Origin: a virus
Length of the DNA stretch: 23,573 bases
Virus record (IMG/VR): IMGVR_UViG_3300001450_000020
Location: 32,577-56,149 of that record
Direction: 5' to 3' (one strand)
The translations under genes and the position numbers were made by a program. A model generated the notes under the pieces. The model searched no databases. It saw only the letters and a list, made by a program, of their open reading frames with translations, and was not told where the DNA came from. Shown one piece after another: positions 3,474-5,092 of this stretch (position 1 is the stretch's first letter; each line of letters begins with the position of its first letter).

Positions 3474-3698
3474 ATGGGAGATTTTAAAAATATATTTAAA
3501 AATAGTAATGATTATAATGAGAAAACTATAATAGGTTTTATAGCGTTTGTTATTATGATCTTAATAATGTTAGCCGATCTTATTACAGGTTGGATAGGAA
3601 AAGATTTAGTAATTAATGAATTTGTATATGACTCATTCCTATTCCTAGTATTAGGATGTTTTGGGATTGCAGGCATAGAAAAATTCGCAAAAAAATAA
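3474..3698 (+). CDS. Two-helix membrane protein, holin candidate
   Basis: A 74-residue protein with two predicted membrane segments: residues about 19-41 (IIGFIAFVIMILIMLADLI) and about 54-69 (DSFLFLVLGCFGIAGI). They are separated by a short polar loop, and the protein ends with the positively charged EKFAKK. A short charged N-terminus, two helices and a basic C-terminus fit class II holins. The downstream M15 peptidase supports a role in membrane permeabilisation at lysis. No sequence signature unique to a named holin family was recognised, so the assignment rests on topology and neighbourhood. Confidence 0.55.
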   Translation: MGDFKNIFKNSNDYNEKTIIGFIAFVIMILIMLADLITGWIGKDLVINEFVYDSFLFLVLGCFGIAGIEKFAKK

Positions 3699-3702
3699 AA
3701 TT

Positions 3703-3867
3703 ATGGCAGGAGAAGCAAAAGAATTTTTACACTCTGATGAGTTAAGTGAATGGGATACAGTATTTGATCCAGGTGGTAAACAAGAATATACTGAAGAACA
3801 ATTAATACGCTTTGCAGAAATGTGGGCAGATATAAAACTAAAAAAAGATAATAATGAAAAAATGTGA
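3703..3867 (+). CDS. Tiny acidic hypothetical protein
   Basis: A 54-residue ORF from ATG at 3703 to TGA at 3865-3867, preceded by an A-rich leader 4 bases after the previous stop. It starts MAGEAKEFLHSDELSEWDT and has a helical centre (EEQLIRFAEMWADIKLKK). It is acidic, soluble and without cysteine. Its last 14 bases overlap the CDGSH-like ORF in another frame. No family is recognised. The tight packing and in-phase gap filling support a real gene. Confidence 0.45.
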   Translation: MAGEAKEFLHSDELSEWDTVFDPGGKQEYTEEQLIRFAEMWADIKLKKDNNEKM

Positions 3868-4024
3868 ATGTGGACAAACAAGTAATGTGGATGGATGGTG
3901 TGATGGCACTCATCAAAAAATTAAAAGTACTATTACAAAGGTTAAAGAAGCAGTATGTAAAGGAGTCTGTAAAATTACAGGAAACAAAATCCAACTTGGA
4001 TGGTGTGGAACTAAATGCTGTTAA
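3854..4024 (+). CDS. Mini CDGSH-like iron-sulfur protein
   Basis: A 56-residue ORF from ATG at 3854 to TAA at 4022-4024. Its N-terminus, MKKCECGQTSN, runs into WCDGTH at residues 15-20. This matches the CDGSH iron-sulfur signature C-x-C-x2-S/T-...-C-D-G-S/A/T-H, whose three Cys and one His bind a [2Fe-2S] cluster. Predicted ligands are Cys4, Cys6, Cys16 and His20. The spacing between the second and third Cys is 9 residues rather than the usual 8, and the usual Pro is replaced. A second Cys set (35, 39, 51, 55, 56) gives 8 Cys in 56 residues. The ORF fills the gap before the M15 gene, whose natural start follows one base after this stop. Zinc binding is an alternative. Confidence 0.6.
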   Translation: MKKCECGQTSNVDGWCDGTHQKIKSTITKVKEAVCKGVCKITGNKIQLGWCGTKCC

Positions 4025-4025
4025 A

Positions 4026-4544
4026 ATGACAAAAATAAGTGATCATGTAAGTTATAAAGAAGGTATTTATAGTGCTACTGCTTTACGAAAAGGAATAGAG
4101 AATACTCCTGGTCCAGATCAGTTAAAATGTATGATGGAAATTGCAGAGAATGTATTTGAACCTTTAAGAGAATGGGTAGGGGGACCTATAAAGATTAATA
4201 GTTTTTTTAGAGGTAAAAAATTAAATACTGCTATTGGGGGATCTAAAACTTCTCAACATATGAAAGGACAGGCTATGGATATAGATGATACATTTGGACA
4301 TAAAACAAATGCTGAAATGTACTACTATATAAAAGATAATTTAGTATTCGATCAAATGATCTGGGAGTTTGGAGATGATTATAACCCTAATTGGTTACAT
4401 GTTAGTTTTGTTACTCATAGAAAAAACAGAAAGAAATTAACTGTTGCATATAAAGATGAGTTTGGAAAAACTAAATACATGCATACAGAAAAACATGAGA
4501 CTAGAACCGGAGGATTATCTCCAGATTGCGGACCAAGAATATGA
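4026..4544 (+). CDS. M15-family peptidase, probable endolysin
   Basis: A 172-residue protein starting MTKISDHVSYKEG. It is a short zinc peptidase of the Peptidase M15 group (D-Ala-D-Ala carboxypeptidase/endopeptidase type) that cleaves peptidoglycan stem peptides. Visible motifs are the FEPLREW core, NSFFRGKKLNTAIGGSKTSQH, then GQAMDID, IWEFG and LHVS. The probable zinc ligands are His78, Asp85 and His125. I choose ATG 4026 because the frame open from 3864 would cover the CDGSH-like gene, while 4026 starts right after that gene's stop and matches the family's usual N-terminus. It has no signal peptide, so a holin would be needed for access. After residue 130 it has a basic tail. The stop overlaps the next gene (ATGA). 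Confidence 0.88.
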   Translation: MTKISDHVSYKEGIYSATALRKGIENTPGPDQLKCMMEIAENVFEPLREWVGGPIKINSFFRGKKLNTAIGGSKTSQHMKGQAMDIDDTFGHKTNAEMYYYIKDNLVFDQMIWEFGDDYNPNWLHVSFVTHRKNRKKLTVAYKDEFGKTKYMHTEKHETRTGGLSPDCGPRI

Positions 4545-5092
4545 AAAGAATAGGAGAATATGTATTTGAATGGGTAACTAGATTTAGGTCATATGTTTAC
4601 TTTAAAAAGATTGATGCATCTACATCTGTCAAAGTTATTGTTATAGATGAAGATGGTAAATTAGGAACTAATTATGTTGCAGGACCAAGAGGAAATCAAG
4701 GCCCTAAAGGAGACACTGGCGATAGAGGGGCACAAGGCGACCAAGGTATACAAGGAATACAAGGAATTCAGGGGATACAAGGTATCCAAGGTGATAGAGG
4801 AACTCAAGGCGCTACAGGATCTCGTGGAGCAACAGGAACAACAGGAAGTCAAGGAGCAACAGGTGCCAAGGGAGATACAGGAGACCAAGGTATTCAGGGT
4901 ATTCAGGGTGTTAGAGGAGATACCGGAGCACAAGGTACCCCAGGAGTTAATGGTGTATTAGATATAACTTCTGGCTTTGCAGCAGCGTTAGCAGTAACTG
5001 AAAGTAGAGGTATTTATACATTAACAATTAACGTTACTAATAGAAGCATTTCAGGTTTTGGTACTAAATCAGTAGCATTTACACTGAGATAA
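4541..5092 (+). CDS. Collagen-like phage fibre protein
   Basis: A 183-residue protein. I start it at ATG 4541 (ATGA overlap with the upstream stop) rather than the TTG at 4526. Residues 1-47 form a small N-terminal domain (MKRIGEYVFEWVTRF...). Residues 48-137 are 30 uninterrupted Gly-X-Y triplets, including five consecutive GIQ units and another GIQ pair. The triplets contain Asp/Gln/Arg/Lys but few prolines in the Y position. The C-terminus (about 138-183) is a beta-rich segment, probably the trimerisation foldon. Bacterial and phage collagen-like regions form triple helices without hydroxyproline, stabilised by charged and Gln side chains. The role is probably a thin head or neck fibre. Synonymous codon differences between repeats argue against very recent duplication. 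Confidence 0.85.
   Translation: MKRIGEYVFEWVTRFRSYVYFKKIDASTSVKVIVIDEDGKLGTNYVAGPRGNQGPKGDTGDRGAQGDQGIQGIQGIQGIQGIQGDRGTQGATGSRGATGTTGSQGATGAKGDTGDQGIQGIQGVRGDTGAQGTPGVNGVLDITSGFAAALAVTESRGIYTLTINVTNRSISGFGTKSVAFTLR
4682..4951 (+). repeat. Collagen GXY coding repeat, 30 nine-base units
   Basis: Thirty in-frame nine-base units, each starting with a GGN codon. The densest part, about 4745-4790, is a near-tandem array of GG-N-AT-N-CA-R units encoding Gly-Ile-Gln. A second GIQ pair lies around 4889-4906. The units differ mainly at third codon positions. Confidence 0.85.

Follow-up and report, generated by a model that had tools for sequence, protein, structure and literature searches.

What does a 56-residue protein with a putative iron-sulfur motif do immediately in front of a phage endolysin gene, and is it a genuine protein at all? 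The locus raising this question lies in a window of 23,573 nucleotides (the whole stretch of DNA that was analysed, to which coordinates refer unless another locus is named), which spans 32577-56149 of a virus record 86,270 bases long. A terminase, a portal protein and a major capsid protein of the crAss type are present (PHROG 6681, 6547 and 11589), and the terminase is about 40% identical to that of cr118_1, a crAss-like phage, over 98% of its length. The source of the window is a marine crAss-like phage, and its host probably belongs to the Flavobacteriia.

The open reading frame (ORF) at 3854-4024 on the plus strand is translated to MKKCECGQTSNVDGWCDGTHQKIKSTITKVKEAVCKGVCKITGNKIQLGWCGTKCC. 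Its residues 1-20 make up a short CDGSH-type segment (hereafter mini-CDGSH), while residues from about 22 to 56 form a helix module bearing a ladder of cysteines. An earlier note, made from the letters of the window, had pointed to four correctly ordered ligands, a spacing one residue longer than the classic form and a second set of cysteines, and all three are borne out by the translation. The motif reads C4-x-C6-x9-C16-D-G-T-H20 (in full C-x-C-G-x-T-x4-G-x-C-D-G-T-H, positions 3863-3913 on the plus strand, 36439-36489 of the record), with C4, C6, C16 and H20 as putative ligands and x9 in place of the classic C-x-C-x8-C-x3-H. The second set comprises cysteines 35, 39, 51, 55 and 56 (3956-4021, plus strand; referred to as the C-module), to which relatives add C43 and C47. 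A search for C-x-C-x9-C-D-G-x-H throughout the 86,270-base record returned this ORF as its one match, and the reversed pattern returned none.

The ORF is flanked by an M15 peptidase gene and a holin-like gene on the same strand. Its stop codon occupies 4022-4024 and the ATG of the peptidase, the presumed endolysin (4026-4544), follows after a single base, in agreement with the earlier note. The peptidase scores 3.6e-13 against Pfam Peptidase_M15_3 and 8e-28 against PHROG 894 (endolysin), both values having been computed on a GTG-extended frame, although the conserved start is 4026. Upstream, at 3474-3698, a 74-residue protein with two predicted transmembrane stretches and a lysine-rich tail is holin-like by its sequence; it had no family match above threshold, and orthologues occur in loci L001-L004 and also in L032, where the gene adjoins a stand-alone C-module. 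The note had placed the mini-CDGSH gene between membrane proteins and the peptidase. The ORF that separates it from the holin-like gene (3703-3867, plus strand) encodes an acidic, soluble protein of 54 residues and overlaps the mini-CDGSH start. Because this ORF is not conserved, being absent from this place in L001-L004, it was rejected as a partner of the mini-CDGSH protein, and it probably stands outside this system. Two other features of the region may be recorded here. At 2317-2703, a cysteine-rich protein of 128 residues (Pfam DUF6171, PHROG 13558) is kept upstream in the relatives, and directly 3' of the peptidase gene, at 4526-5092, lies a collagen-like Gly-x-y repeat protein, the counterparts of which in L002 and L003 carry unrelated C-terminal domains, indicating domain swapping in a fibre-like protein.

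The ORF is recognised by no family library: scans of Pfam, PHROG and NCBIfam gave no match at threshold, a single-sequence search of the PDB gave none, and tblastn of this ORF and other CDGSH-type viral proteins against the INPHARED phages gave no significant match. Moreover, a GTG-started reading frame of the peptidase extends back to 3864 (3864-4544), and the ORF could then be an out-of-frame stretch within a longer M15 gene, carrying a fortuitous motif. The relatives speak against this. Four were found directly and further ones were reached through the M15 gene; in nine complete related contigs the orthologue precedes the M15 gene, has exactly 56 residues with no indels, and leaves a gap of one base. 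In the seven distinct full-length sequences, C4, C6, C16, D17, G18, H20 and the x9 spacing are all kept, so that the loss of ligands in homologous phages, which the earlier note had named as grounds for abandoning its proposal, did not occur. T19 and the five later cysteines (35, 39, 51, 55 and 56) are also invariant in the relatives, and residues 10-15 vary by subclade (SNVDGW, ANVDGW, SNLEGW or SDPNGN). When the window was compared with each relative, pN/pS was 0.19-0.48 in the true frame and approximately 1 to 2.7 in the most distorting shifted frame; one within-clade pair gave 1.09, with few sites. The GTG-extended frame was thus rejected as a real gene, since conservation marks 4026 as the start and the constraint lies in the CDGSH frame. 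ORF 3854-4024 is real and is constrained at the protein level.

The spacing of the motif leads to the same answer. The pattern C-x-C-G-x-[ST]-x4-G-x-C-D-G-[ST]-H (x9) occurs in at least 119 viral stretches of IMG/VR and in at least 120 stretches of a bacterial genome collection, as against a chance expectation of about 0.04 in IMG/VR (2^-41 per position times roughly 9e10 positions, with the collection size assumed). With the classic x8 spacing, at least 120 stretches were found in IMG/VR; with x10 there were 3, compared to about 2.6 expected by chance, and the reversed-pattern control gave 0/50. A chance motif is ruled out by the x10 and reversed-pattern controls, and the notion of a fortuitous, non-coding stretch, already refuted by the constraint described above, keeps virtually no probability.

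Is the motif truly of the CDGSH type? Pfam zf-CDGSH (PF09360) gives the ORF 14.3 bits, below its cut-off of 29.5 (E 0.005 in its genome), and this model also misses the gene in 9 of the 15 host genomes that carry it. With the window ORF at its head, a profile of the family was run against all PDB chains and retrieved, at E<=10, seven sequences, 3TBN (E 0.0013) among them; every one is a CISD/NEET protein. The universal residues of CISDs are C2, C4, S/T7, P11, C13, D14, G15, S/T/A16 and H17 (Lin et al. 2011, PMC3174974), and the x9 family keeps every one of them but P11, the S/T7 equivalent in the window ORF being T9. In addition to the C-x-C...C-D-G-[ST]-H ligands and the S/T two residues past C-x-C-G, the family shares with CISD/NEET proteins a frequent aromatic residue before the third cysteine, and a predicted turn and helix after CDG. 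It differs in that the loop is one residue longer and has [ND]-x-[DNE]-G in place of the conserved proline. In CISDs, a beta-sandwich with an N-strand and a lid-Pro motif was judged necessary, and the smallest CISD solved in the same study, PcCISD (3TBO), has 53 residues (Lin et al. 2011, PMC3174974); the x9 proteins lack beta-sandwich, N-strand and lid-Pro motif and often total 22-30 residues. Only three residues precede C4 in the window ORF, and its model contains no sheet.

Both spacings meet in one protein, encoded at L187:922-1161 in a gammaproteobacterial MAG. This 80-residue, type-6-like CISD has a first motif of x9 and a second of x8, scores 1.1e-16 as a whole against zf-CDGSH (the x9 half by itself reaching 28.4 bits) and aligns with type-6 CISDs, and its model fits 3TBN with a TM of 0.74. 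On these alignments, L187 is a bridge between the two spacings. It shares the tandem architecture of type 6 (MmCISD, 3TBN; human CISD3/MiNT), while tandem x9 proteins of the Opitutae (L226 and others) carry the loop twice but lack a beta-strand module, and in the window ORF one loop is combined with a helix. Tandem x9 proteins, 54-63 residues long, were seen in L200, L226, L228, L225, L269, L284 and other loci of Opitutae/Verrucomicrobiota, and possibly represent a natural paired form. Phages also carry CDGSH peptides of classic spacing, which are likewise short (24 residues upward), but these have x8 with the proline in 97 of 97 distinct proteins among the matches listed. Many phages encode such proteins (viral x8 loci L305-L424, some of 24 residues), in some cases joined to an N-terminal domain of about 50 residues (L384, L389 and L394) or to a protein of about 280 residues (L358 and L411). 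Since P11 is missing, there is no room for a sandwich, and 57 of 57 motifs in the classic bacterial CISDs examined have x8, the x9 family is, by its motif, a variant of CDGSH that stands outside types 1-7. The CDGSH-like character proposed by the earlier note is thus upheld by the universal residues except proline, by the profile's exclusive PDB matches to CISDs and by L187, which joins x9 and x8.

Most members of the family, of 22-45 residues, consist of the cluster loop alone. Among the matches listed, 69 of 108 distinct viral proteins and 97 of 114 bacterial ones have at most 45 residues, the shortest having 22 and 24. At the two S/T positions the DNA search would also have accepted R, C, W or a stop. 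Among the matches listed, none of the 231 distinct DNA motifs (104 viral, 127 bacterial) has anything but S/T there, encoded by several synonymous codons, and selection therefore acts on the protein. Position 8, which was free in the search, was N or D in 88 of the 104 viral and all 127 bacterial motifs among those matches. We consider that the x9 motif defines, by these sequence features, a family of tiny proteins, large and uncatalogued, that is shared by phages and bacterial hosts. In L190, L281, L271, L076, L093, L102 and L154 the mini-CDGSH forms the C-terminal tail of a larger protein, be it RicT/PSP1, ribosomal protein bS16 or an XkdF-like phage protease.

The small size of these proteins bears directly on what the loop binds. 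SEC-C is a short zinc-binding tail, C-x-C-x8-C-[CH], fused to many proteins and lacking CDGSH. The x9 family likewise provides a short C-x-C-G... tail to many proteins, but it has CDGSH, and no sequence match to SEC-C was seen in this analysis. The loop might be a zinc (C3H) knuckle, a small structural or adaptor tail added to many unrelated proteins, instead of an iron-sulfur site: in a stand-alone protein of 22-30 residues no known arrangement would bury a [2Fe-2S] cluster, the stretched loop is without the proline of the Fe-S-binding CISDs, and fusions occur promiscuously, at the C-terminus of RicT/PSP1 (L190 and L281), bS16 (L271) and an XkdF-like phage protease (L076), as well as at the N-terminus of YceI (L199). 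However, the other universal CDGSH residues are all kept, S/T7 and D14, which are not ligands, included; the x9 loop sits within a true CISD architecture in L187; and among solved structures, [2Fe-2S] proteins are its sole relatives by sequence. We regard the zinc reading as unlikely, and lean towards the mini-CDGSH loop binding an Fe-S cluster, as its relatives would suggest.

The remainder of the protein also occurs by itself. Stand-alone peptides of 31-44 residues (L023, L028, L029, L032 and L036) match the C-module in hhalign with a probability of 96% and an E of 3.8e-9; these were compared separately, as they misaligned when mixed into the CDGSH alignment. In four of the five loci the peptide gene lies directly ahead of M15. 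L032 contains the unfused parts, in the order M15, a 94-residue transmembrane protein, a 23-residue mini-CDGSH protein, a thioredoxin-like protein, the C-module and a holin-like protein of the window type. In terms of these matches, the window ORF joins two modules that are each also found independently. The thioredoxin-like protein of L032 (Pfam 4.3e-6) has an N-terminal hydrophobic, signal-like stretch. Proteins of this kind, with a signal-like N-terminus and no CxxC, are encoded at L032:3988-4314, L073:6836-7159 and L080:2485-2805, and the same protein was noticed in the lysis neighbourhoods of L112, L103, L036 and L023.

The AlphaFold model of the window protein (mean pLDDT 79, 85-90 over the motif; pTM 0.50) predicts a bridge 3/15, the CDG turn and a helix at 19-42, a local pattern that recurs at the x8 motif of L187. 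Foldseek with this 56-residue model returned no match, a result that is uninformative at such a size. The helix at 22-42 is amphipathic (hydrophobic moment 0.50, shuffle P 0.007). In orthologues of the L003/L008 type, cysteines occupy 35, 39, 43, 47, 51 and 55, that is, every fourth residue, and this six-cysteine ladder lies in a predicted, partly helical tail (residues 35-55). Csp proteins bind Cu(I) through helices lined with CxxxC. With this precedent, the C-module could be the working part, binding Cu(I) or Zn or forming disulfides as a thiol or metal buffer, and the CDGSH part would be secondary. The regular ladder (by our own count, the chance of seven cysteines so placed in 22 positions is about 2e-4) and the related phages in which a C-module lacking the CDGSH part occupies the corresponding position in front of M15 agree with this. 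On the other hand, the window protein has lost two rungs (G43 and Q47) and yet has kept every CDGSH ligand, and in most of the family the C-module is missing. We consider a primary role of the C-module quite unlikely.

The note's placement of the gene in a lysis region proved to be correct, and to apply more generally. Among the matches listed there were 50 longer phage records, 37 of which have an M15 gene (PF08291) or a three-transmembrane holin gene (PHROG 3427), and 13 neither. The mini-CDGSH gene was within 1.1 kb of one or the other in 25 of the 37 (3.3 expected, P<=1e-5), this distance having been picked after seeing the data; at 600 bases the count was 22/37 versus 2.3 expected. The holin model was built from mini-CDGSH neighbours. 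M15 considered alone gave 17 of 26 records with 2.4 expected, or 7/12 versus 0.97 with one contig per clade, the clades having been grouped by hand by motif. In 9 of the 26 M15-bearing records the two genes are 2-14 kb apart. With the same gene models, none of the 120 viral x8 loci listed had an M15 or holin gene of the kind neighbouring x9, although these loci come from other phages, which may use other lysis genes. A lysis link for all viral CDGSH proteins was rejected, as the x8 loci listed have no such neighbours. Late regions collect all kinds of small genes, and position alone is therefore no proof of a lysis function.

In the bacteria the setting is different, the host homologues adjoining YceI and not murein genes. 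In the Flavobacteriia, a mini-CDGSH gene of about 27 codons directly follows YceI in 62 of the 118 loci listed (L172-L291), with a gap of 24-85 bases in nearly all 62, and in two loci (L199 and L214) it is fused to the N-terminus of YceI. Other neighbours in the bacterial loci listed include MarR (20), FMN reductase (15) and pirin (6); the Paenibacillaceae copies lie near a nitroreductase in three loci and near MarR/pirin in one. These redox neighbours of the cellular homologues are the only functional hint available. They suggest that the phage gene might be a host-type redox-stress gene, a passenger of the late operon serving cell survival or metal handling and unconnected with lysis, with the lysis region merely gathering small late genes. 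Operons resembling those for redox or electrophile stress, the distance from M15 in several phage clades, and the other small cysteine-rich genes crowding the same region are all consistent with this possibility, to which we give a little less than an even chance. Against it stand the association with M15 or holin genes across many phage clades, on the same strand and with gaps down to 3-30 nt, the position next to M15, on its upstream side, in all complete contigs seen for the window clade, and L032, where the same lysis parts stay together in a different order.

The explanation we favour is that the ORF encodes a late-expressed accessory microprotein of the crAss-like phage lysis module, with a minimal x9 CDGSH cluster loop, and as a whole we would give this an even chance of being correct. 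The first 20 residues would form the loop, most likely holding [2Fe-2S] via C4, C6, C16 and H20, and the amphipathic helix at about 22-42 would pair two chains in place of the beta-sandwich, by which CDGSH loops are usually brought together; this pairing is a tentative element, and rather doubtful. The cysteine-ladder tail might add thiol or metal sites. As a partner in the envelope or cytoplasm, the protein would then probably respond to redox state or carry metal while holin and endolysin are made, and the host mini-CDGSH beside YceI may act likewise. That the tie to lysis is functional and not merely positional is, in our judgement, somewhat unlikely. The idea of the earlier note, that a cluster beside lysis genes could sense membrane collapse or redox state, is a speculative one, to which only the gene position and the redox neighbours of the cellular homologues lend some support. 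The sequence, its conservation, the family, the two modules and the genomic association are thus established by the data, and the type of cluster, the pairing and the role are inferred. A bolder proposal, which we regard as improbable, is that a widespread, uncatalogued class of 22-30 residues binds [2Fe-2S] by the CDGSH loop alone, paired through partners or add-on helices, and that phages of Flavobacteriia have repeatedly brought it into their lysis cassettes, where its sensitivity to redox state or acid would time holin and endolysin.

The wider family and its associations with lysis genes and YceI are of more interest than the single ORF. A paired beta-sandwich and a universal proline are considered requirements of the known CDGSH proteins. 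The x9 family retains the ligands and has neither of the two, and its members, the shortest of 22 residues, escape Pfam and NCBIfam. Because these proteins are repeatedly placed beside M15 or holin genes in phages and behind YceI in hosts, they offer an inexpensive means of testing what the minimum size of a natural [2Fe-2S] or zinc site is, and whether redox or metal chemistry plays a part in phage lysis.
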